Assembly (NCBI RefSeq): GCF_000003815.2
Contig: NC_049982.1
Coordinates: 28,146,329 to 28,210,328, forward strand
Reading direction: 5' to 3'
Length of the DNA stretch: 64,000 bases
From: Branchiostoma floridae
Taxonomy: Eukaryota > Chordata > Leptocardii > Amphioxiformes > Branchiostomatidae
The stretch's first letter is position 1; the number at the start of each line of letters is the position of its first letter. This document shows, one piece after another, positions 31,805 to 52,949 of this stretch. Under the pieces are notes generated by a model. It saw only the letters and a list, made by a program, of their open reading frames with translations. It did not search any database and had not been told where the DNA came from. A program made the position numbers and the translations under genes.

Positions 31805-31996
31805 GCATGTAAACATCAAACTTTAATATATTTCTTCAAACACAACAGCAGCACACCCGGTACTATCTGGGACTATAACATAATAGCTAAGCTTGTTCAC
31901 GCAATGAAGCATTACTGGACGACCAGTCGGATTGGTGTTCACGGCGTCTCATGAAGGCAGCTGGTCCAGTGCTTGCAGCTGTGGATGAACAGCATC
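31805..31996 (-). other. Precursor gene 1, 3' UTR exon
   Basis: Minus-strand acceptor TGTGTTTCAG at 31997 then GATGCTGTTCATCCACAGCT. The same exon is found at 41197 and 49473 in the paralogues. A reverse ATTAAA at 31822-31827 is the likely polyadenylation signal. It lies downstream of a stop codon, so it is entirely untranslated. Confidence 0.6.
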
Positions 31997-32079
31997 CTGA
32001 AACACAGAGAGGAGAATGAAATGGTTAAAAAAATGAAAAAAAAAGCACACAGTGTTAAAGAATGCCTAACTTTGTTATT

Positions 32080-32460
32080 GCAACGCTACAAAGATGTCAG
32101 ATGTTGAGTGTATTTAGTGCGTTATTATTCGAGCTGCGCTCCGCAACAAGCAAAGTCAGAATTAGCGCTCATCCTCTTGAAGTGGAAAGAGGGAGATATA
32201 AGAGCTTAGCAGTGTGTGAAAGGCTTTGTAAATATTGTACATCTAAAGCAGTGGGAGACGAAACACATTTCCTTTCCAAATGTTCATTCAACGAAACCGA
32301 AAGAATCACTGTTTAGAGAAGTCACAAAGTATCCCAACTTCCCCACAGATGAACAGAAAGCCACTTTTCTCTTGAAATCGCAGAACCCACAAATTTTAGA
32401 AATTGTGGGGCTTTTCGTCTCCCTCTGCTTTCAAAAAAGAAGTCAAACCCAACCTGTTTA
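32080..32460 (+). pseudogene. LINE ORF2 C-terminal fragment, frameshifted
   Basis: Reads KVRISAHPLEVERGRY, then CERLCKYC, then VGDETHFLSKCSFNETER, then changes frame to LFREVTKYPNF and FPTDEQKATFLL. This is the SxH-x-L-x-x-E-x-GRY ... C-x-x-C ... ExHF-x-x-x-C signature near the end of non-LTR retrotransposon ORF2. The frame break near 32310 and missing reverse transcriptase mark it as dead. It lies in the intron between exons 2 and 3 of precursor gene 1. Confidence 0.75.
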
Positions 32461-32584
32461 GAAATAGCCAACACTAGCATTAGATTAAAATATTGTTTAT
32501 GACTGTCCATTGTCACTATGTGTATACCATGTACTTGCAATTAGCCCTCGGGCACGAACTTGCAAATAAACTTCTTATATTACC

Positions 32585-33748
32585 TCAGTCTTCTCCTCCC
32601 GGGCGCTGGGGGATCCCATCGAGTAGATCCTTCACGATCAATGGTTCATCACCTGCACAAAACACCGCAATATGGTAGTTCTCATGGTAGTCTATGGCGC
32701 CCTCCGTCCCTATATACTTATTTATTTATTTATTCCACTTCACAGATTGCGTACAATCTGAGGGGAGCCGGCAACAGGAATCTAGTTCCTCTACGAGGCC
32801 GACTCCCCCAGAAAATATGCAAAGTTGAGATAAAAACAATAAATGAAGGACAAGTCTATACGTACACGTATATGGCTTCTACATAACGTGACGTCACAGA
32901 AGCAATGTATTGTCCAGTGTATTGTCCAGTCACTGGGATTTATAAAAACATGTTCATCCATACTTTATATTTTGCACATCACTATAACGTTAACCTGGAA
33001 TCCAGTCTACTTGTGGCTCGGCCTACCGTAGTTAGTGCAGGCTCTCTACGGGGCCAGTGTAGCTCTCAGCCGCCGGGATAATCGGTGGCCGGCAATTAAT
33101 TATAAACTCCCACTGGGCTAAAGTCTAACCGCGTGAAAATCCTACCGGGTGTGAACGATTACCCCGGCGGCTGAGAGCTGCACTGGCCCCCGTAGAGAGC
33201 CAACACTAATTTTTCCAGGTTAACATCACTGTGGCATGATTTGGAAATTAACACCAATTCGCAAAGTTTCCTAGTTCCTAGTGAAGGCGTTATAACACCA
33301 TATACAGCAAGGAACAGGCTGGTCACTCCACCTGCAACTACATTTACAACTGTATTAAGAAGCGAGAAGAAGTTGAAACTGTACATACCAGTAGTAGTAG
33401 TAGTAGTACTAGTATACTTCAGACTTTGAAGTTCCAGTCATGTATTACAGTTTACACAGATTGTACTTAGGAGATGTACCCTATTCACCGTGACCTGTAC
33501 TTAGCTTGTTAGAAAGCAAAAACGTACAACAAAGGTCTTCATTCATTCATTCATTCATTAACCCTTAATTACATACCAGCCATCACAGCCCGCTTTGGGC
33601 GTTTATCAAACCCGGGCCAAACACGTCGGCGGTATTTCATCACTCCAGAAAGACGGCGATCAGAATCCTGATCCTCAGCTGCAGGCTGGTGGGACATCAT
33701 GGCCACTGTCAGCGCCACGATCAACAGGATGGCGACAGACTTTCTCAT
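32585..33748 (-). CDS. Secreted precursor gene 1 (79 aa, two coding exons)
   Basis: Exon 1 is 33748-33577 (donor GCTG|GTATGT, phase 1) and exon 2 is 32652-32585 (acceptor TTTTGTGCAG, ending TGA). The protein begins with a clear signal peptide (MRKSVAILLIVALTVAMM), has a basic middle (DRRLSGVMKYRRRVWPGF, then DKRPKR), and after the dibasic KR an acidic C-terminal piece with MAGDEP, VKDLLDGIPQR and PGGED. An acceptor ACAG|GTAAAA just upstream of the ATG shows a 5' UTR intron. Two paralogues (43373 and 52949) share this layout. The signal peptide plus dibasic sites predict a secreted prepropeptide cut by a furin/PC-type protease. It could be a neuropeptide-like or cationic antimicrobial precursor; nothing identifies which. 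No cysteines. A retroposon sits 16 bp beyond the donor. Confidence 0.72.
32700..32830 (-). mobile_element. SINE-like fragment with (AATA)n tail
   Basis: On the minus strand GGGGGAGTCGGCCTCGTAGA GGAACTAG ... TCAGATTGTACGCAATCTG ends in AATAAATAAATAAATA. A-rich 4-bp tails of this kind mark retroposed short elements. Lies in precursor gene 1's intron. Confidence 0.5.
32988..33228. mobile_element. Fold-back element
   Basis: GTTAACCTGGAATCC at the left and CCAGGTTAAC at the right are inverse, and so are GGCTCTCTACGGGGCCAGTG / CACTGGCCCCCGTAGAGAGCC and CTCTCAGCCGCCGGG / CCCGGCGGCTGAGAG. The loop is about 85 bp. A non-autonomous inverted-repeat element inside precursor gene 1's first coding intron. 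Confidence 0.8.
33345..33560 (+). mobile_element. Retroposon 3' end with CATT tail
   Basis: Matches 13329-13490: GCGAGAAGAAGTTGAA ... GACCTGTACTTAGCTTGTTAG ... AAAGGTCTTCATTCATTCATT. Contains a short GTA-repeat (33391-33408). Its tail ends 16 bp before the donor of precursor gene 1 exon 1 (opposite strand). Confidence 0.7.
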
Positions 33749-33799
33749 GGTTTACTTTTACCTGTTTACGAAGACAATAAAGTTGAAGACAACAATGGT

Positions 33800-34780
33800 C
33801 AAAGACGACAAAGGTCAAAAGTTTTCAGTTCCTTTTCGAGGTTAGCCTGGTTACCAAACCCCAGCCCGATCTCAAGTATCTATCGTGCAGGGGTCTGACC
33901 GGATGGGATAGGCCGGCTTCTCAATTTTGTCCCTTATAGTGGGCAAAAAACTCCACCAATAGAACAGCAGCAGGATCAGCAGGAGGTAATTACACCCTAC
34001 CATGATTGGTTAAAGACCCCCAACTGTATTTTTTGAATCCATAACAGCGGCCACCAAGTACCTGATTCGCTACTTTGATAGCCTGCTGACCAACTGTGGT
34101 GTGTTGTAGCTGGCTACCTGTGGTGTGAGTGGTCATGAATCATAGGTTCTCCTCCCTCTGATCAAGGGCCTTTGAGAATATTTCTACAGCCATCCTGCCA
34201 GACCCCAACACAAAAGATATTTTTGAGGTTGGGGTATGGTATCCAGGCTATTTCTAGGTAGGCGAGCTCGTAGGAGGAGGAACATACTGTCACGTTCTGC
34301 GCTGGATTTGTAAATGATGATCACACGTGCTCACGGCGCCACAAGACGTGCATGATTTAAAAGCAATCTAAAATGTCTGTTGGTGTTGCATAATAGCCTT
34401 GATCTACGGTTGAATGGGCAATATAGAAAGTACGCCGCCATTTTATTTCTACGCCAGTAGTGAAGTATTAAGGTTGTGACAGACCAAGGTGAATTGAAAA
34501 TTCTGTCGTGACCCATTTTTTCGTGTCCCTTTCTGTGCTCATGCAGCTTCGGAATGCCGGAAATAAAGGAACAACAGAGGAAGTATAAAGGTACAGAACG
34601 GCAGTTATTTGAGCCGTCTTTCTTCCTGGCGGTACACCTATCCAAGCACGCACCCGTTCTCGCTCAATACAAAAAAAAAAGATACAAAGAAGAAGTGGCA
34701 AAGGTAAGCTGTAACAGCAACATGTAACTGTAGAAAATAATGGGTTGACAATTTGCCAAATATGTAACGCATGAGAAACA
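33800..34780. repeat. 5' flank of precursor gene 1, duplicated at 13.8 kb (D2)
   Basis: Matches 13836-14500 across most of its length, apart from the insertion at 33843-34250. Both copies keep GTACGCCGCCATTTT and, on the plus strand, AGAAGTGGCAAAG|GTAAGCTGTAACAGCAAC, a well-formed splice donor in a conserved context. Confidence 0.75.
33843..34250. mobile_element. ~410-bp inverted-repeat insertion in D2
   Basis: Ends TAGCCTGGTTACCAAACCCC and, inverse, GGGGTATGGTATCCAGGCTA. The related copy at 13.87 kb lacks it, so it is an insertion after the duplication. No coding capacity. Confidence 0.75.
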
Positions 34781-34879
34781 CACACACGTTACACGTTACT
34801 TCTTATCAAAGTCTAGTAATTTCTGCACAGCGCAATAAACTGTCTGATTCTGTCAACGATCATCAGTTTTCGTACTGTC

Positions 34880-35100
34880 TAAAACCACCAAATACCCAGC
34901 GATTGGACAAAAAGAGACGAATTTCTGACCTTGTGAGAGAATGTAGGTATGAACAGCGACTGAATTTTGCCTTGTCACGAATGACGTCGCAACAAATCAT
35001 CACAACGTTACGAGTTGAAAAACAGGATTTTTCTATAATCGCAACAAAGAAAAGCCTTGAGACAAATTAAAGTAAATGTCAACACACACAGACATTCTCG
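34880..35100. repeat. Distal 5' flank shared between precursor genes 1 and 3
   Basis: CGATTGGACAAAAAGAGACGA ... AACGTTACGAGTTGAAAAACAGGATTT ... AAAGTAAATGTCAACACACAC at 34900-35090 matches 53577-53765. It marks the outer edge of the segmental duplication. Confidence 0.7.
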
Positions 35101-35227
35101 TCTGCAGTCCGATCACGTTCTACTGCGTTTGTTGTCAGACAGTATCCTGTTCGCCATTGTAACCTCCGCGAAATGGGAGGTATTGTTTTTAAAGTGACTG
35201 TGTTATTGGAGATCTACCATCGTTATC

Positions 35228-35541
35228 TTAAAGCTATACTACGTAATTTTTGGACAATACAAAAAGTAGATTTTCCTGCCATTTCTTTACATAGCAAGCT
35301 AAGTCTACCCTTTAGCATTGAATACCAAGGCTCAGTGAGAGAAGTTGCAACATCAGTGCATCATACAAACATGTCTACAAACTGTGATCTTCCTACATTG
35401 TACATGGGACTCCATGCTTCCTAGGGAACATGCCCACATCTGGCTTATCTACTGGAGGCCTGGAAGTTGTTATTTACAACCAGGAGGGTCTAACTCGGGT
35501 GGTCACTGGTCACTCAGATAAACTACGTGGTATACCTTTAA
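35228..35541. mobile_element. TTAA-flanked 306-bp MITE
   Basis: TTAA on both sides; inverted ends AGCTATACTACGTAATTTT and, inverse, AGGTATACCACGTAGTTTA. Same target type as the element at 29322 but unrelated ends. Confidence 0.7.
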
Positions 35542-35800
35542 GTCATACGAGACAGAAGGCTGGGGTTTGCTGGTCACGCATGGCGGAGTAAAGATGAGAT
35601 CATCAATGACGTTCTGCTGTGGACTCCCAAACATGGTCATGCAAGCAAGCGTAGACCACGCAAAACATATCTACATCAACTTTGTGAAGATACTGGCTGC
35701 TCGGCTGAAGAACTGCCCAAGGTTTGTAGAGGATAGGGAAGGATGGAGGAATCGAAGAGAGTCACATCCATGCACGCCTGGATGATGGATGATGATGTCA

Positions 35801-36242
35801 CAGTAGGGGTGGGTACCGGTACAGAAAATTCAGGTCCAGGTCCGGTTCAGGTCCAGAGGATCAGGTCCAGGTCCGGACCTGAACCTGAAACTGGACCTGA
35901 TTCAGTATGACTCATACCAATGGTCCATTTCACTACAAAGAAATCTGTTTGGTGGTGTATTAGACTCACACTGGCGTTTTAAAATCCTACAACGCTAACT
36001 ACACACGTACGATCAACTGTAAAACTTGGTAGAAATGACTATAAACTCTAATCTGCTTCGCTCATGTTATTTTCTTCCACCTGCAAGCGCCAAAACGTGT
36101 GAATGCCTGATCAAATAGTATGTTAATTTTCTAATAGGTCCAACATCCGATACACCTAATTTTTTCAGGTCCGGTTTTTCTGGACCGGTCCAATAAGAAA
36201 AACCGGTTTTGTACCGGTACGCTGTACCGATACCCAGCCCTG
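35801..36242. mobile_element. hAT-like non-autonomous element rich in GGTCC/CCGGT motifs
   Basis: Ends CAGTAGGGGTGGGTACCGGT and, inverse, CAGGGCTGGGTATCGGTACAG. CAGGG-type ends are typical of hAT transposons. TGTCA flanks both sides, which could be part of a target duplication. The left part carries repeats of CAGGTCCAGGTCCGG and the right part ACCGGT-rich palindromes. Confidence 0.65.
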
Positions 36243-36360
36243 TGTCACTGCATGACGTCTTTGCCATTATCGGTCACGTTCACCGTAAAGTAATAGATTT
36301 ACGTTGTCAACTTGACTAGATGGTGAAGTGTAGAGTTGCCAGAACCAGTAAACTCTCCAG

Positions 36361-37239
36361 ATGGGATGGCACCTGACAGACATTCTAGGTCAAGGGTCAA
36401 TGGAAGAGCTCACTTATTCAAAATTTCTATTCAGGGCTCCTAATGGTACAAGTAAAGCTACAGTGCTCGGAGAACTAGGTTGGAAATCTATATCAAGCTT
36501 ACAAGACAGACTCAGACTAAAATTCTACGATAGACTCATTAAAATGGAAGAGCACAGATGGCCAAAGATGATACTTCTTCAACTATTTGACATTATCAGG
36601 ACAGGGAAATCTATAACATGGTCCTGGGTCAAACACATGAAGAACCTTCTCACTTCCATAGGTTTGGACCATATATGGTGCAATGATTCACCCGTTAACA
36701 GACACTGGATAAACTCAGCAATAAGAATACACAACTCTCAGCAATACGACATTTTCCTAAGTAACATGACCTCTTGTAAAGCATTGGTATTTAGAAACAA
36801 ACATGAGCTCAATCTTGAAGACTATCTTAAAGACCCCATTAGCCCAGAGGAAAGCATATTAAAGTTCAAGGCTAGAGCAGAGGTACTAGAAATGGAAGGG
36901 AGGAAACTATCCTGGAAAAGTTACAATGGAAATGGAAACTGTACTAACTGTAACCTGCAGGAACAAGAAACCGTAACTCATTTCCTACTTATATGCCCCA
37001 GTTATTCGAAAGAAAGAATCTCCCTTTTCACGAACCTTGAAGATGAACTAACACGTGCAGGGGGAGTCTTTCTATGGGAAACATTCATGTCATGCAATAC
37101 TGAAAGAAAGAAAGATCTTCTCTTAGGTTACAAAGGCCCATGGGAATCTATTATAGATAGGCATGTTAAGAAATTCCTGTATAAGGCATGGTCCACTAGA
37201 AAATGTAACAACAATGGAAGTCAAAGTACTCAACACTAG
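36361..37239 (+). CDS. LINE A: non-LTR retrotransposon ORF2, C-terminal 292 codons
   Basis: An intact frame lacking the reverse transcriptase, i.e. the 3' third of a LINE ORF2. The signature is NCTNCNLQEQETVTHFLLIC, a C-x-x-C...H...C knuckle near the end, preceded by KFKARAEVLEMEGRKLSW. The element is 5' truncated, as is normal. Its 3' UTR (37240-37500) matches a second copy at 38797-39210. LINE ORF2 proteins copy their own mRNA into nicked target DNA; this fragment cannot do so alone. The first ATG is simply the first in the open frame. Confidence 0.8.
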   Translation: MGWHLTDILGQGSMEELTYSKFLFRAPNGTSKATVLGELGWKSISSLQDRLRLKFYDRLIKMEEHRWPKMILLQLFDIIRTGKSITWSWVKHMKNLLTSIGLDHIWCNDSPVNRHWINSAIRIHNSQQYDIFLSNMTSCKALVFRNKHELNLEDYLKDPISPEESILKFKARAEVLEMEGRKLSWKSYNGNGNCTNCNLQEQETVTHFLLICPSYSKERISLFTNLEDELTRAGGVFLWETFMSCNTERKKDLLLGYKGPWESIIDRHVKKFLYKAWSTRKCNNNGSQSTQH

Positions 37240-37459
37240 CTTCTCTCAAGATCACTGTCCTCCAGCTCCACTCTATCACACTACTCAACGTTATGTTTAC
37301 CATTACGCTTTCGTTCATTTATGTCCATAGCCAATTACTATAACAATACTGAACCAGTGTTATGATTTGACCTGTTATTATCCATTATCATTTGTTATGC
37401 TCTTTTCGTCCATGATCTGGACATGATTTGTCTTTTTAACGTATTTATCTATCTACGTT

Positions 37460-37507
37460 AACTTTTCCTATAGATAGGCATTGTTAAGAAATTCCTGTAT
37501 ACTAAGG
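37460..37507 (+). mobile_element. Start of a second LINE A 3' end, interrupted by LINE B
   Basis: TAGATAGGCATTGTTAAGAA ATTCCTGTATA and CCACTAGAA repeat 37153-37200 of the first LINE A. The match resumes at 38797 (GAAAATGTACCAACAGCAATG) after LINE B and its poly(A). Confidence 0.75.
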
Positions 37508-38762
37508 CATCATCACTCCACTAGAAGTGTTGTTCAAGTACGGTATCCAAGGTGGAGCTCTTGACTGGTTCGCTTCCTACCTCTCCGGAAGACAGCACTG
37601 TACTTCTGTAAATGGAGTCCTTTCTAGCTTCCACACAGTGAAGTACGGCGTTCCACAAGGCTCGATTTTGGGACCACTTTTATTCATTATTTATGTAAAT
37701 GACATGCCTAACTGTATTCAAAATTGTGAAATTTCAATGTATGCCGATGATACGGTTATTCACTTCAGCAGCAAGGATTCTGGGACCATCGAGAATGCCC
37801 TTCAGACAGATCTCGAAAGGTTGTCTCAATGGTTTGCAGTGAACTATCTGTCGATAAACGAAGGAAAGTGCAAGTGTATGCTAATAGGTACAGATAAAAA
37901 ACTGAAAACTTGTACAAACCCCAGATTGGCCGTAAATGGTCAATTTATCAATCTATGCTACATGTACAAATACTTGGGTATATTCATTGATAATCAACTG
38001 AATTGGAAGCGGCACGTCAAAGACGTCCTTAGCAAGTTAAGACGAGCATTAAGTATTATGAAACATGTCAGTCCATTTGTATCTACATCAGCACTTCGTA
38101 CTCTATACAATACAATCTTCCTGCCGTACATCACATATGGAAGTACTGTTTGGGATACTGCACCGGAGCAAGACCTTCAAAAACTCCAACGAATGCAGAA
38201 CAGGGCCGGGAAGCTGCTACTGAGGGCCCACTACAGAACACCCTCGGCCGAAGTGCTGACTCGTCTCGGATGGAAAAACATCAAATCCATACACAGACAA
38301 CAGAAGGCGTTGCTCACATACAAAGCTCTAAACAACTTACTGCCAGTCTACATGAGGAACTTGTTTACATACTGTAGGGAAAGGTCAACTAGATCAACGC
38401 GACAAAGCGAATCCAACCTACTATACTTACCCATGGTCCACAGGGAAGCGTATCGAAGATGTATAACGTACTCAGGCACAGTTCTGTGGAATAGTCTGAG
38501 AGAGAACGTGAGGCAGGCGCCCTCTTTATCGTCGTTTAAGAACTTAACTCGACTAGAAATTATGTAACTATGGACTATGAGATGGACTGATATTATGTTG
38601 AAGACGAAAGGATCTATGGAATGGTGAATTGTATGATGATGAATTGTATCTTTTGTGTAGTGCATTGTATTTAGAAGGTATTTAGACCTCTGACCTCCTC
38701 CACCCTTGAAATCTTGAAAAACGGCTCAGGCCGAATGATGTATCAAGGTTAAATAAAGGTTG

Positions 38763-38796
<34 letters not shown>
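37508..38796 (+). mobile_element. LINE B: 5'-truncated non-LTR retrotransposon with poly(A) tail
   Basis: Begins within a reverse transcriptase frame and ends with AATAAAGGTTG followed by about 33 A (38763-38796). It splits a LINE A 3' end. AGAA occurs at both borders and may be a short target duplication. The long pure A-run suggests a recent insertion. Confidence 0.85.
37527..38567 (+). CDS. LINE B reverse transcriptase, C-terminal 346 codons
   Basis: Contains palm-domain motifs GVPQGSILGPLLF and, about 40 residues later, the catalytic YADDT, then a thumb region (YKYLGIFIDNQLNW) and a C-terminal domain (YGSTVWD, LQKLQRMQNRAGKLL). The N-terminal fingers and any endonuclease are missing through 5' truncation. 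The sequence reads most like the CR1/L2/Jockey group. The frame is intact through to TAA, consistent with young age, but the protein cannot be active without its first part. Confidence 0.9.
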   Translation: MLFKYGIQGGALDWFASYLSGRQHCTSVNGVLSSFHTVKYGVPQGSILGPLLFIIYVNDMPNCIQNCEISMYADDTVIHFSSKDSGTIENALQTDLERLSQWFAVNYLSINEGKCKCMLIGTDKKLKTCTNPRLAVNGQFINLCYMYKYLGIFIDNQLNWKRHVKDVLSKLRRALSIMKHVSPFVSTSALRTLYNTIFLPYITYGSTVWDTAPEQDLQKLQRMQNRAGKLLLRAHYRTPSAEVLTRLGWKNIKSIHRQQKALLTYKALNNLLPVYMRNLFTYCRERSTRSTRQSESNLLYLPMVHREAYRRCITYSGTVLWNSLRENVRQAPSLSSFKNLTRLEIM

Positions 38797-38798
<2 letters not shown>

Positions 38799-39210
38799 AA
38801 ATGTACCAACAGCAATGAAAGTCAAAGTACCCAACACTAGTTTCTCTCAAGATCCAGCTCCACTCTACTACACTACTCAACGTTATGTTTACCACTACGT
38901 TTTCGTTCAGTCAATATGTTAACATACACTTATGTCTATAGCCATACGCTGACAATACCGAACCATTGTAAAGATCTCATTTGTTACCATCCACTATCAT
39001 TTTGTTATGCTTTTTCTCCTCATAGTTTGGACATGATTTGTCACCTATTTATTTATTTATATATTTTAACCTATCTTCATTAGAGTTAAGTCATGAGTTA
39101 AGTTATGTTATTTGATTTACGTTACTACGTACTTGTACTCCATGCACGCGGCAGTGCCGAATGTGCCGCCGTTTTTAAGGCGAATAAAGTTCAAAGTTCA
39201 AAGTTCAAGG
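38797..39210 (+). mobile_element. Remainder of the second LINE A 3' UTR
   Basis: Matches 37201-37440, e.g. AACACTAG(C/T)TTCTCTCAAGATC and ACTACTCAACGTTATGTTTACCA. It ends in GCGAATAAAGTTCAAAGTTCAAAGTTCAAGG, a polyadenylation-like signal plus a 7-bp (GTTCAAA)n tail, which defines the true 3' end of this family. Confidence 0.8.
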
Positions 39211-39689: not shown

Positions 39690-41040
39690 TTAAACTGCGT
39701 GAACCATGTCAAAGCTTCGCTACGTCATAGTCGGACGTTTCAACTTCCGGATGGAATGACATTAAATGTCGTGCCAGAAAGCATGCTGTTCACTTGACTA
39801 CCGCTAGAGGCCTTACGTGAGATGGATATGTATACGTAAGACACATGTTTCTATGTGTGCGATGGATACTTGTGTGTATCTCCGTTTACATTCACAATTC
39901 TCAGCAGTGTCTACCTCTCGTCACCTACTTAAAAACGGAGGTATTGTTTTTGGCGTGTCTGTCTGTCTACAGTAGCTATGGATGAATAATGACAGTTGGT
40001 AACCATTAATATCGTAGTAAAGCAAAGGTCAAGGTCAAAACTATTATTATTCTATATATCAGGATGGGTGACCTTCATCGCGTGTAAAGGTCAATTATGG
40101 GCCTTTGGTGGCCTTTTCTGACACTGCAGCAAAACTTCCTTTTTACTAATTTTTTTTTATACTAGACATGGTGCTGTCTTGAATTTTGGTACCAAATGAC
40201 CTTTAAAATAATGAAAACGTGGTGCAGGTTTTATCCCTCAGCAGTTTGTTTTAAAACTGTTGCGGCCTTTTGCTTAACATTTTTCAAGCGGATAGCTGGA
40301 GAGAGAAAGGCTGGATTTATTTTCACGATTACTAGGAATGTCCAGATATGCACTGCTACTTTACCCTCTGACCCATGGTTTTCTATAACAACTGCCTATT
40401 CATTGTATGTCATAGATTCATTTCCTATATGTTAGAAAGAATACGCAAGACATGTTCGCGCACACCAAGCTTGTTTGATGATCTCTCCAACAGTACATAG
40501 AGGTCCAGGTGAGTTACATCAAACCAGAAGCCAAGTCTGTATCATTCATAGTACTAAGATGTGAAGTTGTCAAATTGAATACAAGTCTAAAACGTATTTT
40601 GTTAATTCTGAACGTGGCATTGACAAATCCCTGCATTAACTACATTGGAACATGTTACTAGTATGTAACAGACAGAATGGTTTAAATGTACTTGATATCG
40701 ATCAGGAGCAATGGTGATAATTATGATGCTAAAGTCTTTATTTTTCCAAAGTGTTTGGAAAACAACGATTCTGAAACAGTGAACCCTTAATCCTCAATTG
40801 CAAATCGAGGCATTGTTCCTTGGTGTCTGTAAATTTGTGGTGACGGAAAGCTTTTATTCCAATTAACAGTGGTAAAAGTTGGGCCTTATATGAGCCTTTT
40901 GATGTTATGTTTGTGTTCCGAGAGTTTTTTCTTTCTTCCAAAAACATGATACACGATACGTATGATACGTATACGCGACTCATATATAATTGTAAAAGTT
41001 GACATGCATGTTAGCATCAAAGTTTAATATATTTCTTCAA
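39690..41040. repeat. Second copy of the segmental duplication, distal part
   Basis: TTTCAACTTCCGGATGGAATGACATT at 39737 recurs at 48293; GGAGGTATTGTTTT(T/C)GGCGTGT at 39939 recurs at 48520; the 40470 landmark recurs at 31264 and 49060. No gene of its own seen in this part. Confidence 0.8.
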
Positions 41041-41197
41041 ACACAACAGCAGCACACCCGGTACTATCTGGGACTAAAGCATACAAGCTAAGCTTGTTCA
41101 CGCAATGAAGCATTACTGGACGATCAGTCGGATTGGTGTTCACGGCTTCTCGTGAAGGCAGCTGGTCCAGTGCTTACAGCTGTGGATGAATAGCATC
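41025..41197 (-). other. Precursor gene 2, 3' UTR exon
   Basis: Acceptor GCGTTTCAG at 41198, then GATGCTATTCATCCACAGCT; reverse ATTAAA at about 41023-41028. Matches the exons at 31996 and 49473. Confidence 0.6.
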
Positions 41198-41717: not shown

Positions 41718-43373
41718 TCAGGCTTCTCCATCCAGGCGCTGCGGGATCTCTTCGAAACGATCCTTCACTGGGTCATCCCCTGCACAAAACATAGCAACAT
41801 GGTAGTTTTCATTCTGGATAAAATTTAAAGATAATTTCCAGTACATCAACCTAATCTTTTTCTGCTGTGACGCAATGTTATTTTATGTATTTAACATACA
41901 CTATCATAATTCCACCAGGTGCCAATATACCGCCACATCGAAAAACGTTGTTAACGAGGCCTTCCTAAGATTGCCTTCAACTCCTAAATATCTGAATTGT
42001 ATTATATTTAAGATATTTAATATAAGGTGTTCAAGACAATCTTGAGAAGGCCTCTATAACAACGTTTTTTTTGAGGTGGCGGTATAATGGCACCTGGTGG
42101 AATTATGATAGTCGATGTTAAATGAAACATGACTCAGACGTCGATCATTGAGGTTTCAGGGTTGGCTAAATTGGCATTTTGACTTTCCGTTGTTTTCTCA
42201 TTAATGAATTAAGAAAGAATGGAACTGTAACGCATATTGATAGATCGGCATGAAAGAATTCTAAATCTGATTTTTTGGGGGCCATATGGATGACGTCATC
42301 AGGTTTTATTGCCCCTAATATTATTTTTTCTATGAGAAAATACAAGACTTTGGTACATACCACCGCAATGAAACTATGTTTTTCATGTGCATAATGATGA
42401 AGGCTACAAGCTCTTGTTTGCGCCAATCGATATCTGCTAATGATCTGTAGCTATTAGAAAATAATTGTTTCCATCTAATTATAAAAAATCATTTTCTAAT
42501 AATTACAGATCATTAGCAGATATCGATTGGCGCAGAAAGTCTATGGAGCCCTCCATCCTTATGTAGAAGACTTCTACATAACGTGACGTCACGAAATTAA
42601 GGCAAGCATTGGCTGTTTATACATTTTATAGTATGTTACCAAATATCATAAGTAAACAACCGTTTATCAGTTCGAATCTGTTGTTGATGCGTTTTTGATA
42701 ATTGTACAGAGCTTTTGATGGCAACACTGCGATTTCTAAAAACATGTTCATCTGTACATCATACGTTGCACATCAGTGTGACCTTATTGGGCAATTAACA
42801 CAAGTTTGCAAAATTGCAGCACAGTCTAGTTACCATGCAAACTAACATATGTATGTATGTATATGCATGTACACAAAAACAAAAACTTTCCATAATGCCA
42901 TTATCATACAATATGCATAGATATTGAAGACACAGAAGGCATATTGTCATATCCAAGATACACATGTATTCTTCTTAGTTAAATAGCCCAATACATTTGT
43001 AGTTGTACCCTGAGCACAATGTACTTTTATGTCATATCATCAGTAAGGCAAGCGCTTTGCAGTAGCCCAGGTCTAGCTTAGGCCATGTTGATTTGACAAT
43101 ATGGATGACATCCTTGGGTAACAGAAAAAACTGATGCGAGCGTACGAATTTAAAAAAAAAATTGTCAAAGAATGCCTTTATCACAAAATCTATAAGTGGG
43201 CGGAAACGGATTGTTGAAGAAATTAAATTACCTTCCAACGCAGTTCGCTTTTGGCGATCAACAACCCCGGCGATTCGACGCCGGCGCCTGCCAGAACTTG
43301 TATTTTCAGCCTGGTCGAACATCATGGCCACAGTCAGGGCCACGACCAACAGGATGGCGACAGACTTCTGCAT
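41718..43373 (-). CDS. Secreted precursor gene 2 (67 aa, two coding exons)
   Basis: Exon 1 is 43373-43232 (donor GAAG|GTAATT, phase 1); exon 2 is 41779-41718 (acceptor TTTTGTGCAG, ending GCC-TGA), with a donor five bases past the stop leading to the 3' UTR exon at 41197. Signal peptide MQKSVAILLVVALTVAMM, then a spacer with Asn-Thr-Ser, a run of five Arg (GRRRRRIAG), DRQKR, and the acidic tail with GDDPVKD, EEIPQR and DGEA. The 5' UTR acceptor GGTTTTACAG|GTAAAACC directly precedes the ATG as in paralogue 3. Shares about 60% identity with gene 1 in the signal peptide and the tail but little in the basic middle. Predicted secreted prepropeptide; role unknown. Confidence 0.72.
41888..42125. mobile_element. 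Fold-back element in precursor gene 2 intron
   Basis: TTTAACATACACTATCATAA TTCCACCAGGTGCCA at the left is the inverse of TGGCACCTGGTGGAATTATGATAGTCGATGTTAAA at the right; inner arms include GTTGTTA-AGGCCTTC. Arms about 90 bp, loop about 40 bp. Confidence 0.8.
42415..42536. repeat. Perfect-arm palindrome
   Basis: TGCGCCAATCGATATCTGCT AATGATCTGTA and its inverse TACAGATCATTAGCAGATATCGATTGGCGCA, continuing into TTAGAAAAT / ATTTTCTAA around a short loop. Lies in precursor gene 2's intron. Confidence 0.85.
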
Positions 43374-43399
43374 GGTTTTACCTGTAAAACCAGGAGTAA

Positions 43400-45329: not shown

Positions 45330-45662
45330 TCAATACATTCGTACTATTCCTGTCAGAATAGGTCAAGCATTACATGTAAGTACTTAATACGGCAAGAGGG
45401 GTGGTTTTTACATAACTAACCTTTAAAAATCCTCTCAGCAACGTTTATCCAACGAGGTTTAACCCAGGAGTCGTCCAGAAATCTGTTGCGCACCTGCCTG
45501 GGAGTCAATGTAATGTAATCCTCGGGATCCCTTCCTTTTGTTTTTACCCGTGACATGCGTAGCTTTCCCATTGTCTCACCGTGAACTTGCAACCTTACAC
45601 CTGTTTATGCAAGGATAACATCTAAAGAGCCTGTATAGCAAGTCTCTGTAGCAGGCTTTTCG
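45330..45662 (-). CDS. Three-exon micro-cassette, copy 1
   Basis: I do not recognise the product. Minus-strand exons A 45662-45601 (phase 0 to 2), B 45497-45421 (phase 2 to 1) and C 45349-45330 join in frame to RKACYRDLLYRLFRCYPCIN, then RQVRNRFLDDSWVK with PRWINVAERIFK, then GIVRMY-stop. Borders are AG|CGA...ACAG|GTGTAAG, CTCCCAG|GCAGG...AAAG|GTTAGT and CTGACAG|GAATAG. Introns are about 70-105 bp. The same three exons with the same phases occur in copies 2 and 4, and A and B also in copy 3. Upstream (to 45817) a hydrophobic open stretch LAGLYF...TVFCLYIFC might belong to a signal-peptide exon, but its phase does not fit. Predicted basic peptide with Cys pair; the first exon is not found. Confidence 0.42.
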
Positions 45663-45976
45663 CTGGACCTTTCTTTGGCTTTTGAAAGACGTGTTGTTTC
45701 CCCGCGGCCGATTCTGATTGCGCACAGTCTATATGATTCTACAAACAACAAGGTACAATTACAAAAGATATACAAACAGAAAACAGTACGCCTACACCGA
45801 AAATAGAGGCCAGCCAAGAATTCTGCGATTGAGGCTAAATAGATGCCATATCAGCGTTACACCAACTTAGCTATACATATATATACTAACAACCATACCC
45901 TGTCTTGAGCATCATCTTTTGTTACCAAAGCTCGTTTCCTTGTGTGCCTACTTGACAGACTAGCATGCCAAGCCAC

Positions 45977-46325
45977 TCAATACATTCGTACTATTCCTGT
46001 CTGTCAGAATAGGTTAAGCACTATATGTAAGTGCTTAACACGGCAAGAGGGGTGGTTTTTACGTAACTAATTATAACCTTTATAAATGCCCTCAGCGACG
46101 TTTATCAGACGACGTTTAACCCAGCCGTCGTCCCTGAGAAATCTGTTGCGCACCTGCCTGGGAGGCAATGTAATGTAAACAGTGAGTCTACTCCTGATCC
46201 CTTCCTTTTGTTTTCACCCGTGACATTGTCTCATTGTCTCGCCCTGAACTTGTAACCTTACACCTGTTTATGCAAGGATAAGCTCTAAAGGGCCTGTATA
46301 GCAAGTCTCCGTAGCAGGTTTCTTG
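45977..46325 (-). CDS. Three-exon micro-cassette, copy 2
   Basis: Exons A 46325-46264 (QETCYGDLLYRPFRAYPCIN), B 46157-46078 (RQVRNRFLRDDGWVKRR then LINVAEGIYK) and C 45996-45977 (GIVRMY-stop). Exon B is one codon longer than in copies 1 and 4, an in-frame change. Donors GTGTAAG and GTTATA and acceptors CTCCCAG and CAGACAG are kept. Directly upstream (46340-46375) it abuts copy 3, so copy 2 has no upstream exon of its own. Confidence 0.42.
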
Positions 46326-46373
46326 CTGGGACTTTTTAACACGAAAAAAAAAGAGTGATTTTACTTAACTAAC

Positions 46374-46605
46374 ATTTAAAAAGCCTATCAGGAACGTTTA
46401 TCAGACGACGTTTAACCCAGCAGTCGTCCCCGAGAAATCTGTTGCGCACCTGCCTGGGAGGCAATGTAATGTAACCCTTCTTCCTTTTGTTTCTACCCTT
46501 GACATAAGTAGATTTCCCATTGTATGACCGTGACATTGTAACATAACACATGTTTATACAATGATAAGATGGCCTGTATAGCAAGTATCTGTAGCATGCT
46601 TCTTG
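46374..46605 (-). pseudogene. Micro-cassette, copy 3 (decayed)
   Basis: Exon A (QEACYRYLLYRPSYHCIN) and exon B (RQVRNRFLGDDCWVKRR, LINVPDRLFK) are present at 46605-46552 and 46453-46374. The exon A donor has changed (ACATGTG for ACAGGTG), the exon B donor has lost a G (AAATGTTAG for AAAGGTTAG), the A exon is shortened, and exon C is absent. Probably non-functional by itself. Without splicing, A and B happen to lie in one frame. Confidence 0.45.
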
Positions 46606-46609
46606 CTGA

Positions 46610-47500
46610 GCCTCTTTATGGCTTTTAAAATACATGTTGTCTCACCGATTACATATTAGTTCTGATCGATCTATTCATCTTTTTTTTTTTTTAAATTTTC
46701 AAAAAGACACAACAAAGACATTTTCCCCCATTATATTAGTGCAACAAATTTGCCATGCAACATTGGAAACCCATGAAAGTACTCAAAGCCCTATTCAGAC
46801 CAAATCTTGCCAAGTTGCCATCTGGGACTGTACTGGAAGCTGTTGAATTGTGAAACTGAAATACTTCGCGGCTGCGTCAGACTTTATGAGCCCCAAACAT
46901 CGTATGTTGCATGGGTGTTGTGTGTGACTTAGTAATGGTTGGGGTTGTCTTTTGTTAGTTGTCATTTAGAGTTAGGCTTATTCTGAACTTTGTTCAGAAA
47001 TCACCATTTGTGCTTTTCTGGAAAAAAAAAGAAAGCTCTGGCTAACGCAGTCAGTCTTGTACACCTTTTTGCTTGTATTCAAGGCTCATTTCCTTCTCCC
47101 TACTTTACTCTAAAACTCGGAGTGTCTAGTCCTATTTTGTTCAGGAAAGTTACACTAGGTTAAGTGCTGTTATCTTGTACGTATCTCAAGGCAGCTTTTC
47201 GGTGGCATAAGATAGTATCATAAGCTGGCTAAGGAGTGAAAACGACGTCCAAGATGTGTCCATTAGTGGTGGCGAATGAACACTCCTATAGGCCGACTAC
47301 AATCCTTTGCCAGCTTATGATACTATCTTGAGCCATCGTAGGTTATGCTTGAGGATTGATCTTGAACTATATGATAGATCCGTGTGTACATGAAACAGAT
47401 GTCAGCGTTTCATTAACCTTGCTATAGATACATATACTTAAAACCATACCTTGTTTTGAGCACCATCTTTTTGTTGGCAATCCTCGTTTCCTTGTGTGCC
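46610..47500. other. Spacer between cassettes; fold-back at 47206-47335
   Basis: No gene seen. ATAAGATAGTATCATAAGCT GGC and the inverse GCCAGCTTATGATACTATCTTGA bracket about 80 bp, a small inverted-repeat element. Confidence 0.55.
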
Positions 47501-47528
47501 TACTTGACAGACTAGCATACCAAACCAC

Positions 47529-47869
47529 TCAATACATTTGCACTATTCCTGTTAGAATAGGTCAAGCGTTACATGTAAGTGCTTAACTCGAAAAAAAGGG
47601 GTGTTTTTTTTACATATTAAGAACTAACCTTTAAAAATCCTCTCAGCGACGTTTATCAGACGAGGTTTAACCCAGGAGTCGTCCAGAAATCTGTTGCGCA
47701 CCTGCCTGGGAGGCAATGTAATGTAAAACGCCGGATCCCTTCCTTTTGTCTTAGCCGTGACATGCGTAGTTTTGTCAATGTCTCACTCTGACATTCTAAA
47801 CTAACACCTGTTTATGCAAGGATAGGCTCCGAAAGGCCTGTATAGCAAGTCTCCGTAGCAGGCTTCTTG
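47529..47869 (-). CDS. Three-exon micro-cassette, copy 4
   Basis: Exons A 47869-47808 (QEACYGDLLYRPFGAYPCIN), B 47705-47629 (RQVRNRFLDDSWVK, PRLINVAERIFK) and C 47548-47529 (GIVQMY-stop). Exon lengths (62, 77, 20 bp) equal those of copy 1. Splice borders ACAG|GTGTTAG, CTCCCAG|G, AAAG|GTTAGT and TAACAG|GA are intact. A further 150 bp upstream (to 48060) also matches copy 1, but a hydrophobic frame there has a stop codon in this copy. Confidence 0.42.
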
Positions 47870-48059
47870 CTGAGCATTTTTATGGCTTTTGAAATACGTG
47901 TTGTTTCCCCGATTACACATCAATTCTGATTGCACACAGTCAACATTCTAAAATTCTATAAGCAACAAGGTTCACTTACAACTGATATACAAATAGAAAA
48001 CAGTGCGGCTAAACCAAAAATAGAGGCCAGCCAACAACTCTGCGATTGAGGCTAAATAG

Positions 48060-49230
48060 ATGCAAGGTAGGTAATGCCGAATCCAAGATGGCCGCCGTTC
48101 ATCTAATGTTGCACGTCAAGTTGAATTTTGTTGTCATAATTTTGCTTTCTTTATGTTGTCTCACTGGCCTTCTACGCTTTTGCTCATTTGTGTGTAGTGT
48201 TTTACTAATATATCGGTTAATGGTGTCAGAACTCTATGAAAATAAGGATAATATTTATTGCATATCATTTATCTTTATTGCATCGCTGACATTTCAACTT
48301 CCGGATGGAATGACATTGAATGTGGTGCCAGAAAGCCTGCCGTTCACTTGACTATCGCTAGAGGCCTTGCGTGAGATGGATACGTTAGACACGTGTTACT
48401 ATGCGTAAGATGGAAACTAGTATGTATCTCTGAGTCAGCTAATTTGTTTCTGTTGCATGTAGCACTATCAAACACATTTCTCAGCAGTGTCTACCTCTCA
48501 TCACCTACGTAAAAAACGGAGGTATTGTTTTCGGCGTGTTTGTCTGTATTTTTGAGTCTCCGGATAAGTTTGTCTGAAGAAGCCATGCATGGCTAATGAC
48601 ATTTGGTAAGCATATTCGTCTTTGGCAAACAGATGTCAACTTCAAAACTATCATTTGCCGTATCTTATTACCTGGATGTGTGACTTGTCAAGGTCAAGTA
48701 TTGGCCTTCTGGTGGCTTTCCCTGATACTGTAGCAGAAGATGTTTATTTATTTATTTTTTAAACTTGTGCATGCTGCGATTTGGATTTTTGGTGGCAAAT
48801 GACTTTTGATGTCATTAAAAAGTTGCACAGGTTTCCCACAGCAGCTTGTTCTGGAAGTGCAGTGGCGTTTTTGTTAAAATCTTTCCAACCGGATAACTGA
48901 AAAAAAAGCCGCTAGATTTTCATTATTACTTCATGCGAATGTCCATGCATGCATTGTCACTTTACCTTTTAAACCTATGGCTTCCTATGACAAATATATA
49001 TATAATGTGTTTTAGGTCCATCTCCTATCTGTTGTAAACAAAACATTCAAAACTTTTCCACGCACACCAAGCTTGTTTGATTATCTCTGCAACAGTACAA
49101 AGAAGTCCAGGTGACTTACATCAAACTAGAAAAAAGTCCATATCATTCGTAATAAGATATGAAGTTGTCAACTAATATAAGTTTAAAAGTCATTTTGGTC
49201 ATTCTGAACGTAAGATGGACGAATCTCCGC
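48060..49230. repeat. Third copy of the segmental duplication, distal part
   Basis: Matches 39690-40560 (CCGGATGGAATGACATT, GGAGGTATTGTTTTCGGCGTG, CACACCAAGCTTGTTTGATTATCTC). No gene. CCAAGATGGCCGCC at 48083 is a YY1-like core. Confidence 0.75.
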
Positions 49231-49232
49231 AT

Positions 49233-49351
<119 letters not shown>

Positions 49352-49369
49352 GCATAAAAGCTATGTTTG

Positions 49370-49473
49370 ATCGTGGAGTGAAGCATTACTGGACGATCAG
49401 TCGGATTGGTGTTGTTCACGGCGTCTGGTGAAGGTAGTGGGTCCAGTGCTTACAGCTGTGGATGAACAGCATC
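49370..49473 (-). other. Precursor gene 3, 3' UTR exon
   Basis: Acceptor CATTTTCCAG at 49474, then GATGCTGTTCATCCACAGCT. Matches 31996 and 41197 but runs into the compound microsatellite, so its 3' end is unclear. Confidence 0.5.
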
Positions 49474-49935
49474 CTGGAAAATGAAAATGATGTCTCAAAA
49501 ATGAGGCCTTGAAGGCTAATGTTGATTTGATTACATGGACGATATTAGTAGATATAGTTTGGAGCTTCGAAACTAACATATAGATTTTACCAATATAGAG
49601 AGATTTGAGGAGCAATAGTCCCTGAAAGATGTACAAAACGACGAAAATTTTAGTCAAAACAAAATTATCCATATCTTTCTCTGTGTAGGGTGGTGTCCAT
49701 CCCAATGTACATAAACCTAAATAGGGGGCTAGTTTTTTGTAGATATAGTGTGTTTTATTGCCATATACACTCAAAGAGCAGGGAAAGCAGTACGATTTTC
49801 CAAGTATTTGGTATACGACTCGGTGTTTTTTTTTTAATCGGGACATGCCGAACACTCTACCCACTAGGCTATTGTGTTGGTTAGACTGTGCATGCGTTTG
49901 GTAAACAGTAACTTACACTGTGATTGTAAAGCTAA

Positions 49936-50225
49936 CGGCACAACCCGCCGTGGTGTCTAAGTGCCAAAGCGTGGGCAATCGCACAGAGATTGTACGTTGT
50001 AAGCACGTACAACGCAACGAACGATGCACGCAACCGGTTCACGGCCAGGCGTGGCGTGCAGACCACATACTTACACCTTAGCTTGCGCAACCGTGCGAGA
50101 GACGTGCGTTGAGATTTGCTTTCACCCTGCTCTTGCCAGTTCTTCCCCACGTTTTCGGAAAAACGTGGCGGACATGACTTCCAAAAAACTTACGGGCTAA
50201 ATGCACGTACGGCGGGTTGTGCCCC
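49936..50225. mobile_element. 290-bp MITE with TAA target duplication (PIF/Harbinger-like)
   Basis: TAA at 49933-49935 and 50226-50228. Inverted ends (C)GGCACAACCCGCCGT and GGGGCACAACCCGCCGTACG. A 3-bp TWA duplication is typical of PIF/Harbinger. A relative of the right end (GCACGTGCGGCGGTTTGTGC) is at 6929-6950 in intron 1 of the secreted-protein gene. Confidence 0.7.
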
Positions 50226-50297
50226 TAACTTAACACTACAAAGATGTCTCATGCTGAGTGTAAAAATCAAAGTGCACCGTGTGTTAATAATAATACC

Positions 50298-52949
50298 TCA
50301 GCCTTTTTCTCCGCCCGGGCTCTGGGGAATCTGATCGGGAAGATCTTTCACTGGTTCATCACCTGCACAAAATACAGCAATATGGTAGTTTTCAGAGAAA
50401 ATTAAGGTCCCCTATCTAACGCATCCACTTCAGGTCAATTTTAAGGTCTTAAAGTCATCCTTTTTAAACCTTAAGCACCCGAACTGTTTTTTTTTCCGAC
50501 TAAAATGACCCAGTGGGGTCCAAACGGACCCCGAAATGTTTTGTTCAATAAAATTCAATTTCCAATTATCATCGCTGATACATTGCTTCAAGAATGTAAG
50601 AGGAATATTCTAATTCCAACTCATTATCATGATTTATGCAAAACATCAGAAGAACTACGTTTTGCACTAACCCTATTCTGACCAGGGTGGGGAATTTTTT
50701 TGTTGTGAGGATTAAGTTTTACATGTTTATCATTCTCTGAAGATTTGGTGGTCATACGTGTACGATACACAGTTTTAAGTGGGTCTCAAAAGTTTGTTTA
50801 AAAACTGTACATTTTGCTGGGGTAGAGGCCTGCGCCAACATTGATGTCCTATAACGCCAGAACGGCTTATGCTAGAGCCACCAAATTTAGTGAGTTTCCC
50901 TAAAATATTGTTGGCAACAAATTCACGAAGTTTGACAAATTTCCATGTTTCTGTGTTGCCATGGCAACCGTTTGTTGACAGGCTGTTTTGCCAAAAATCG
51001 CAAATTTCGGTTTTAACAATGTATTTTTCATGTTTATTTGCTATATTGCTGCTAATTTTTTACATAAATAAAATCTTATGTTATTTAGAATATCTTTCAT
51101 AATTAGATATGCATAGATTATGCTAATTTGATGACGTCATCAGCCCAAAATCCAAGATGGCGGACCGAATGGCCAGATCAAGAATAACTACCTTATTATC
51201 CCTTAGAATTTGTAAATAACTGGTATTTTTCACCAAAAACCATCTAAATGAATGTATTTAGTCTATTTCCATTGTCTTTTGTGATTATTTGTTGCAAAAA
51301 CGTATTTTTGAAAATTCAAGGAGGTGGATATAGTATGGCGGAGCCAAACTGGTATCTTAGATGTGCATGACGTCATTGTATGACGTCATTGTGACGTCAT
51401 TGATGTTGCTATTGGCAACACAAGTCGTAACAAACATTATTTTTTCTGTTATCTGCACTTGCTATTACATTTTTGGAGCAAAACTTGAAGTTTTCTGCGA
51501 ATACCCTTTTTTCATGGGTCCGGCCGGTACAATTAAACTGATGACGTCATAATTACGTCATATTACGTCAAGGTAACGTCAAACGTCAAATAATTGTCAG
51601 ATATTATGTCTACATCATTTCCTAAAAATTTTGTGGCCCTATCGCACGTCGTTCAAGAGTTATAGGACTTAGAAGAAGAGGGCCTCAAAAGCCCCCCCCC
51701 CCCCCCCGTCCAGGGATGACCAAAAAAGCCCGGTCTGAATAGGGTTGAGGGTGAGGAAATGGACTATCACACTGTGGTGTTAACAAGCGGGATCAACTTT
51801 ATTTGTAAAACAAAAACACAAATAAAGGGACCAAAAGCTGCCGATGTTTGGAAAGCCACAGCTGTCATTTTGCAATGCACGAAAAATCTACACTTTTCTA
51901 GTTACCATATTTAACTGCCCTGGTAGTAATACTGTGGCTTAATATACATGTACTGTGCTCATTTATTATGCAAATTAGCCCCTGGTTTGCAAATTAGCCC
52001 CTGGTTTGCATGACTAGCCCTTTCTGAAAGGCATATCCAAAGTTTCATATACATAAAAAATCACGATAATCCGTCAACCCCTGCCCGAATTATTCCCTTT
52101 CAAAAGTATGGCGCAATTGCACACGCGCGGGCGAATTGCTGTGGAATTTCGGGAATTTTTGCCCATCGGATATATCCTTAACAGTAAGCCAAATATTTCT
52201 CCATTTTGGAGTTACATATTGCATATTTTTCAGCATTCTTACATGAAATGCAGTGTATTTACAAACTTTTCTCATTAAAAATGCAAGATAGCCCGCGATT
52301 TGTATGTTTTGCACTTATTTATGAATGGCATCTCTGAAGCTATCTACAATCAAAATATCATGAGGATCCGTCAACCCATTCCCAAGTTATTCCACTCTAA
52401 AGGGATGATGCAACTACACATGCCTGTTGACAAATTCACGAGATTTTGGGAATTCTCGTCAAACGGTCGCAAAACTATTAGGCTCGCCCCTGAGGCGTCG
52501 CCAAAAAAGTAAAAACATTATACGTAGGTCTTAGGGGTTTTTTTCCTGCATAGTAGGCATTTGTTTACAAGAATACAACGGGGTCAAACACGGACAAACT
52601 GTGATCAGTTGCGTGACCTATCTTAGAAAATGCTGCTTGTCACCAGTACAGTGTAGTAGGTGTACCTTAAACTGACACAAAACGATTGAGATTCGTATGA
52701 GGCGCGTATTGTGCGTACGACTGCGCATGAAAAAAATGTCGATACGGACCTCAAACGGACTTTAGATACGTATACGCTCTTTTGACTACACACGAAGGCA
52801 ACCAACTTAAACATACCTGTCCGCATAGCTCGCTTTAGGCGATGAACAATGACTATGAAGCGTCGGCGGTATTTCTTTACGACATAAAGATAGGACACCA
52901 GGTGTACAGTCAGGACAACGATCAACAAGATGACTGCAGTCTTCTTCAT
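50298..52949 (-). CDS. Secreted precursor gene 3 (65 aa, two coding exons)
   Basis: Exon 1 is 52949-52817 (donor ACAG|GTATGT, phase 1); exon 2 is 50362-50298 (acceptor TTTTGTGCAG, ending GGC-TGA), followed after one base by a donor toward the 3' UTR exon at 49473. Signal peptide MKKTAVILLIVVLTV, then VVKKYRRRFIVIVHRLKR, an alternating basic/hydrophobic segment ending in a dibasic site, then the acidic tail with GDEPVKD, IPQSPGGE. The KYRRR block is shared with gene 1. The 5' UTR acceptor CGTACAG|GTAAAACC directly precedes the ATG. Here the basic segment is the most amphipathic of the three and looks most like a cationic membrane-active peptide, but this is inference. Its intron contains a MITE (49936 is 3' of exon 2) and a 1.08-kb inverted-repeat element (50669-51746). 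Confidence 0.72.
50669..51746. mobile_element. 1.08-kb inverted-repeat element
   Basis: Ends AACCCTATTCTGACCAGGG and, inverse, AACCCTATTCAGACCGGGC. Inside are three TGACGTCAT motifs in 35 bp (51368-51400), GATGACGTCAT at 51130 and 51540, and a run of 17 C near the right end (51690-51707). No transposase. Non-autonomous. Confidence 0.65.
51960..52505. repeat. Two diverged ~310-bp units
   Basis: ATCACGATAATCCGTCAACCC...CCCGAATTATTCC...GCAATTGCACACG at 52060 corresponds to ATCATGAGGATCCGTCAACCC...CCAAGTTATTCC...GCAACTACACATG at 52360. CCCCTGGTTTGCA is directly repeated at 51980-52010. Confidence 0.6.

Follow-up and report, generated by a model that had tools for sequence, protein, structure and literature searches.

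What does a family of small, spliced genes in the genome of the amphioxus Branchiostoma floridae make? Three of these genes, here called A, B and C, lie on the minus strand of a 64,000-nucleotide (nt) stretch of the RefSeq assembly GCF_000003815.2 (contig NC_049982.1, positions 28,146,329 to 28,210,328), which we refer to as the window. They encode 79, 67 and 65 amino acids (aa), respectively, with identical splice phases. We propose, at a probability of roughly 0.55, that they are precursors of linear, arginine (Arg)-rich cationic host-defence peptides, each carried together with an acidic, charge-neutralising propiece.

Under this proposal, an N-terminal signal peptide would route the product into the secretory pathway, where a furin-type proprotein convertase would cleave after an R-x-[KRE]-R motif that occurs in all seven family members we identified. 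The freed basic peptide of 19 to 31 residues would be the active part, binding anionic microbial surfaces. The separately encoded acidic tail would serve as a propiece that, by computed charge balance, nearly neutralises the basic part until processing. Transcription, secretion, cleavage, the identity of the active half and its action are all predicted here from the DNA. The host-defence reading is suggested by intact paralogues, mixed Arg codons, point estimates below 1 for the ratio of nonsynonymous to synonymous differences (pN/pS), the opposite isoelectric points (pI) of the two halves, a gene plan like that of mussel myticalins, an order of parts known from Ciona precursors and a second amphioxus family with Arg runs.

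Gene structure and paralogues

The exon starts, phases, splice sites and translations that a first-pass annotation had given for A, B and C were all reproduced, and on sequence evidence these gene models are sound. Similarity among the three loci is mostly exonic. Pairwise blastn matches comprise the signal-peptide part of exon 1 from just 5' of the ATG (A-B, E = 1.3e-20), the tail exon together with about 30 nt of the preceding intron (tail exon with flanks: A-C, 9.3e-24; B-C, 3.3e-30) and the 3' exon, in addition to small islands within introns and, in the A-B comparison, the 3' flank. The coding intron is in phase 1 in all three genes, and the stop codon closes the second coding exon, adjoining the donor (TGAG/GTAATA in A, TGACAGAG/GTAATA in B and TGAG/GTATTA in C, with the slash at the exon boundary).

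The assembly of 513,431,437 bases in 431 contigs was searched with a blended tail and with the first coding exons of A and B. At least four further intact copies emerged: D (L021, contig C14), E (L022, contig C4), F (L023, contig C5) and G (L024, contig C5). E sits on the window's own contig, about 60 kb outside the window. The description of a three-gene family thus holds for the window and under-counts the genome, which has at least seven intact members; this count is itself a lower bound. The tail search recovered five of the seven tails, and those of F and G were located by blastn in the DNA around their loci. One further, weak match (contig C19, E = 1.11, one internal TAA) was discarded as chance.

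All seven genes have GT/AG splice sites, a phase-1 intron, an uninterrupted frame and a stop at the end of the tail exon. Coding exon 1 measures 172, 142, 133, 178, 142, 160 and 166 nt in A to G; each length is 1 mod 3, giving the phase-1 end. Randomly broken frames in homologues, which the first-pass annotation had held would speak against the family, were seen in none of the seven (0/7). The family would have expanded by both tandem and dispersed duplication. The last ~30 nt of intron 1, with the pattern AACTACCAT.TTGC....TTTTGTGCAG (for example, 32682-32653), are recognisable by eye in all seven genes. Between B and E, this acceptor region is identical at 31 of 32 positions, versus 43 of 57 immediately upstream, and regulated splicing of the tail exon is possible.

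Precursor architecture

The same parts follow one another in all seven precursors: an N-terminal hydrophobic stretch, a linker, a block of three to six Arg residues, a variable stretch and an R-x-[KRE]-R-[AST] site, a few residues beyond which lies the phase-1 intron. The hydrophobic N-terminus reaches a maximum 15-residue hydropathy of 2.7 to 3.1 across A to G. Judged by eye and hydropathy, the signal peptide is clear in six genes and doubtful in C. The Arg block can be aligned across genes, and the sites read RPKR, RQKR, RLKR, RQRR, RQKR, RQER and RQER in A to G. The middle had been described as ending in KR; this is true of A, B and C, and the fuller motif extends to all seven genes. A strict dibasic pair is present in five of them (KR in A, B, C and E; RR in D), F and G having RQER. 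The tail exon encodes a GD[ED]P.KDLLD.IPQRPGGE-like pattern in A to E, with VND and TPQ as variants in E, and the pattern is degraded in F and G.

The two halves are oppositely charged. With signal-peptidase sites picked by eye, on which the middle and pro-part charges rest, the middle has 19 to 31 residues, a net charge of about +4 to +8, a pI of 10.9 to 12.0 (above 11 in six of seven genes; 10.9 in A) and 24 to 42% Arg. The acidic tail has 22 to 26 residues, a net charge of about -2 to -6 and a pI of 4.1 to 4.4. Net charge summed over the pro-part is +5.8 in C; the other six genes range from -0.2 to +2.8. Five or six consecutive Arg occur in B, E, F and G. The codons of the Arg runs are mixed in A to E (for example, AGG CGC CGG CGT CGA in B), and those in F and G are nearly all CGT. 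Intact frames, a furin-like site and opposite charges thus give good support to the claim that these genes encode a secreted prepropeptide in which a basic part is paired with an acidic one.

As to function, both host defence and a neuropeptide role had been put forward, and the first fits better. We consider it very improbable that the genes are neuropeptide or prohormone precursors, even though a small precursor with a signal peptide and a convertase site is what such a gene would present. A glycine (Gly) directly before R-x-[KRE]-R, the amidation signal, is absent from all seven genes, and no cysteine and no repeated peptide copies are present in any of the seven precursors. The several diverging paralogues and the large Arg-rich sister family described below would, in addition, be unusual for neuropeptides. 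We favour host defence over a neuropeptide role because of these diverging paralogues, the missing Gly and the myticalin-like layout and introns.

Comparison with known antimicrobial precursors

Myticalins and modiocalins are mussel linear cationic antimicrobial peptides that are reported to be restricted to Mytiloida (PMC5577615, PMC12294457). As described there, their genes have a first exon consisting only of 5' untranslated region (UTR), an intron right before the ATG, a middle exon encoding signal peptide, mature peptide, dibasic site and the start of the tail, then a phase-1 intron and finally an exon for the remainder of the anionic extension. The mature region is often rich in proline and Arg and hypervariable, and the extension has 35 to 75 residues (PMC5577615, PMC12294457).

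The amphioxus family looks to be built in the same way. Signal peptide, cationic middle and anionic C-terminal extension follow in the same order in all seven genes, with the signal of C doubtful. Arg content exceeds the 10% given as a myticalin feature in all seven, and the pI of the middle is above 11 in six. The boundary carries a dibasic site in five genes and R-x-[KRE]-R in seven; the phase-1 intron falls a few residues beyond the cleavage site in all seven; and both are multigene families. The intron right before the ATG may be common to both as well: a putative acceptor lies there in all seven genes, with a 5' exon candidate in five. One difference is that the 3' UTR is apparently a separate conserved exon in amphioxus, whereas it belongs to the last coding exon in myticalins. 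We do not file the family as myticalins because the tail is too short, two of seven genes lack the strict dibasic pair and the likeness is one of plan, with no claim of sequence homology.

Two further comparisons come from chordates. Cationic antimicrobial precursors of Ciona (Ci-MAM, Ci-PAP and relatives) likewise run from signal peptide through cationic to anionic C-terminal region (PMC7387483). They thus share the order of parts, come from an invertebrate chordate and have signal peptides that are conserved within families. Their cationic part is an amphipathic helix and, according to the authors, has no basic boundary motif (PMC7387483), in contrast to R-x-[KRE]-R in all seven genes here. 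On the amphipathic-helix question, the middles of our family have a grand average of hydropathy (GRAVY) of -2.4 to -0.2. BjAMP1 of Branchiostoma japonicum is a 97-residue precursor whose anionic part comes first, with a cationic C-terminus and a mature peptide bearing two cysteines (PMC4683396). It resembles our family as an amphioxus secreted precursor with anionic and cationic parts and a dibasic site; however, the order is reversed and it contains cysteine, which none of our seven precursors has. It is a different gene.

Selection and the weight of evidence

We summed pN/pS over the 21 gene pairs, which are non-independent, and obtained 0.58 for the signal peptide (bootstrap range 0.40-0.89), 0.60 for the middle (0.44-0.75) and 0.82 for the tail (0.53-1.50). 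All point estimates are below 1. Raw pN was 0.14, 0.34 and 0.25, respectively, and pS was 0.57 for the middle versus 0.31 for the tail. The first-pass annotation had stated that the tail is conserved and the middle is not. Raw pN agrees with this (0.25 versus 0.34), but pN/pS does not, the bootstrap ranges overlapping, nor does the closest pair, B and E, in which the tail exon is 88.7% identical and the following intron 2 88.1%. The data show neither free evolution of the middle nor stronger constraint on the tail.

These values also bear on whether the tail, and not the middle, is the product. The acidic tail might be hormone-like and the basic middle a dispensable linker or sorting segment that terminates at the furin site; we regard this as unlikely, though a serious minority option. 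The tail has its own exon, its GDxPxKD..IPQ..GGE pattern can be recognised in A to E, and its raw pN is below that of the middle. Yet its pN/pS is the highest of the three blocks, and F and G largely lose the tail motif while keeping the Arg block and R-x-x-R. There is, further, no cysteine and no repeated copy, and a C-terminal Gly of the amidation type ends the tail only in C.

Several observations weigh against the host-defence reading itself. By pN/pS, the middle evolves no faster than the tail (0.60 versus 0.82), so the signature of a hypervariable effector, as in myticalins, is absent or undetectable. Nor do the data establish that the tail is constrained, since its upper bootstrap bound is 1.50 and the B-E tail exon shows about the same identity as intron 2. 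Window-family tails have 22 to 26 residues, versus 35 to 75 for the myticalin extension. C is without a clear signal-peptidase site, and the RQER of F and G is a weaker site. With GRAVY values of -2.4 to -1.4 in six genes and -0.2 in C, the middles are strongly hydrophilic and so are unlikely to be classical amphipathic helices. Finally, Pfam searches with A, B and C and a PDB sequence search with B returned nothing significant (Git3, E = 0.12; Inhibitor_I53, E = 0.011, below its cut-off; Msh3, E about 1). A literature search on the tail and signal-peptide motifs gave no matching paper.

To our knowledge, few antimicrobial peptides have been described from cephalochordates. If the host-defence reading is true, the genes would add a multigene class with a tripartite, myticalin-type precursor to this early-branching chordate lineage. 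It would also raise the question of whether the plan, with an intron at the ATG and a phase-1 intron after the cleavage site, arose once or repeatedly among animal defence peptides.

A second amphioxus family with Arg runs

A search with exon 1 of G, followed by one with a gene matched in it, revealed a larger set of 66 matches at E <= 10, all free of internal stops; 38 loci lie at E < 1e-3. Some of those counted may be recent or assembly duplicates: L057 and L058, for instance, are 97.6% identical over ~5 kb. Because Arg-rich composition inflates E-values, only matches that cover the signal peptide deserve trust. The shared plan, seen for example in L048-L058, is a signal peptide ending in DDSEG or DHSEG, a tryptophan (W), phenylalanine (F) or similar residue, an Arg run and an acidic stretch, as in MKLFVCMMLVTMVVMATLIDDSEG-W-RRRRRRRR-GRLD... 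Among the 12 loci fetched (L048-L059), the longest Arg run is 4 to 10 residues in 11 and two residues in L059; seven members have W and 8 to 10 consecutive Arg straight after the signal peptide, followed by acidic sequence. A literature search for the W-R8 string together with amphioxus gave no such string among the matches listed. GR comes after the Arg run in L051-L055, where C-terminal amidation is possible.

Is this second family related to the genes in the window? The 66 matches include F, G, E and B at E = 0.02-0.52, and the best cross-match in the search with exon 1 of G had E = 0.10. A second exon could be located, with sites placed by eye, in eight of the 12 loci; the intron is in phase 1 in all eight, and the exon that follows it has a high content of Glu and Asp. 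The same eight loci have an AG 7 to 13 nt upstream of the ATG, a possible acceptor. In L056-L059, however, the acidic stretch lies inside the first exon without a phase-1 intron there, which weakens the parallel. Unlike the window genes, most members are without R-x-[KRE]-R ahead of the acidic part. Homology between the two families is plausible; it is weak by score and is argued mainly by gene structure. A bolder and tentative idea, to which we give clearly less than even odds, is that both belong to a lancelet clan of oligo-arginine secreted precursors, natural equivalents of octa-arginine cell-penetrating peptides, in which the window genes would be the furin-site branch and the acidic half a charge chaperone. 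With its runs of as many as ten Arg, the second family would be a natural counterpart of synthetic oligo-arginine delivery peptides.

Long Arg runs also suit a protein that does not kill microbes. The window genes could encode secreted or surface polybasic proteins for polyanions, such as glycosaminoglycans of mucus or matrix, or nucleic acids, and C could stay membrane-anchored. The five or six consecutive Arg in four genes, the still longer runs of the second family and the low hydrophobicity of the middle are consistent with this, as is the hydrophobic stretch of C, which leads into KKYRRR with no obvious cleavage site. We nevertheless consider such a role distinctly unlikely. A binding protein would not need the furin-like site that separates the charges in all seven genes, and near-neutral precursors would better suit a latent peptide that is released.

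Upstream element and 3' exon

An upstream element is shared by A, C, D, E and G (partially at E). It consists of a TATA-like box, AAATCCTGTT and ~130 nt that terminate at a donor-like GT[AG]TTT in A, C, D and G. It was absent from the results for B and F when upstream DNA was compared by blastn and nhmmer. The nhmmer E-values are circular, as the same copies built the model; pairwise blastn and the genome search are free of this circularity. Queried with the copy of A, the genome yielded four matches, each 5' to a family gene (those of A, D and C, and one lying ~6 kb ahead of E); the search missed the copy of G and the partial copy nearer E. No extra gene was found in the 3.8 kb surrounding the distant copy upstream of E. 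In all seven genes, a putative acceptor AG is followed by 8 nt (13 in A) and then the ATG, and five have an upstream exon candidate. The element is likely a promoter with a 5' UTR exon. The element supports the 5' UTR intron proposed earlier. B and F, for which it was not found, may be differently regulated.

The non-coding 3' exon was found in six genes; blastn and genome searches did not find it for G. A blended A/B query returned six genome matches, all in family genes. Over the first 110 nt, counted from the ATG one base inside the exon, A, B and E share 93-100% identity, versus 75-77% just downstream. For A-B alone, the figures are 93-98% and 76%, and A-D identity is 96% over the first 60 nt and 81% over the following 50. 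C, D and F retain the core. The 3' exon is better conserved than the coding exons in comparisons among A, B and E.

Such conservation invites the thought that the RNA is the conserved entity, the transcript mainly carrying the 3' exon and the short frame being incidental or decaying. The near-equal identity of tail exon and intron 2 in B and E points the same way. We judge this extremely improbable, in view of frames that are intact in all seven genes, exon lengths that shift by multiples of three and pN/pS point estimates below 1. Rfam gave no match over 31400-54000, and the 3' exon of B folds unremarkably over its first 110 nt (z-score -0.98).

Splicing exon 1 straight to the 3' exon, with the tail skipped, would open a CCSSTAVSTGP... 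frame. We did not take it as coding because the two non-ATG frames give pN/pS of 2.72 and 0.72 over the first 48 nt in six genes, and the frame of D, by eye, stops early. Five genes (A, B, C, E and F) have a separate ATG frame in the 3' exon (MLFIHSCKHWTSCLHETP in A), which begins 2 or 6 nt past the main stop and has pN/pS of 0.24 over 48 nt. Doubts about it are that D is without the ATG, that conservation among A, B and E outlasts its stop and that 8 of its 16 variable columns are at third positions.

Features of the window

Table 1. Positions of the features of genes A, B and C in the window; a slash marks an exon boundary or cleavage point.
Gene	Feature	Position	Strand	Support
A	Putative TATA-like box (ATTATA, 35039) and 5' UTR exon to donor at GTATTTGG (34895)	34896..35039	-	blastn to D 1.2e-69, C 3.3e-12, G 1.2e-7; genome search
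A	Putative acceptor AG/GTAAAAG, 13 nt 5' of ATG	5' of 33748	-	
A	Coding exon 1 from ATG: signal peptide, basic middle, RPKR; phase 1 end, then GTATGT	33577..33748	-	
A	Furin-like site RPKR/A	33590..33601	-	R-x-[KRE]-R here in 7/7 genes
A	Coding exon 2: acidic tail GDEPLIVKDLLDGIPQRPGGED and stop; then donor G/GTAATA	32585..32652	-	
A	Non-coding 3' exon, 3' end approximate	31812..31996	-	Identity to B; genome matches of blended query
B	Coding exon 1: signal peptide, RRRRR block, RQKR site; phase 1 end	43232..43373	-	
B	Coding exon 2: acidic tail GDDPVKDRFEEIPQRLDGEA and stop	41718..41779	-	
B	Non-coding 3' exon, 3' end approximate	41013..41197	-	
C	Putative TATA-like box (ACTATATA, 53712) and 5' UTR exon to donor at GTATTTGG (53572)	53573..53712	-	blastn to D 3.6e-15, A 3.3e-12; genome match 3.3e-7
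C	Coding exon 1: hydrophobic N-terminus, KKYRRR, RLKR; phase 1 end, then GTATGT	52817..52949	-	
C	Coding exon 2: acidic tail GDEPVKDLPDQIPQSPGGEKG and stop	50298..50362	-	
C	Non-coding 3' exon, 3' end approximate, continuing into CT and AT microsatellite	49340..49473	-	

The window holds other sequences, the first two of those below named by eye. Between A and B, on the plus strand at 36352-38567, two open frames of 295 and 353 aa resemble the reverse transcriptase of non-long terminal repeat (non-LTR) retrotransposons. Long open frames also occupy 57483-62696 on the plus strand, one of which, of 1080 aa, contains tandem 132-nt (44-residue) repeats that appear to be of the TPR type (AHPDIAxSLNNLG). 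Units of ~340 nt are repeated at 8000-10200, each with a possible exon after CTACAG, and resemble a multi-exon repeat gene.

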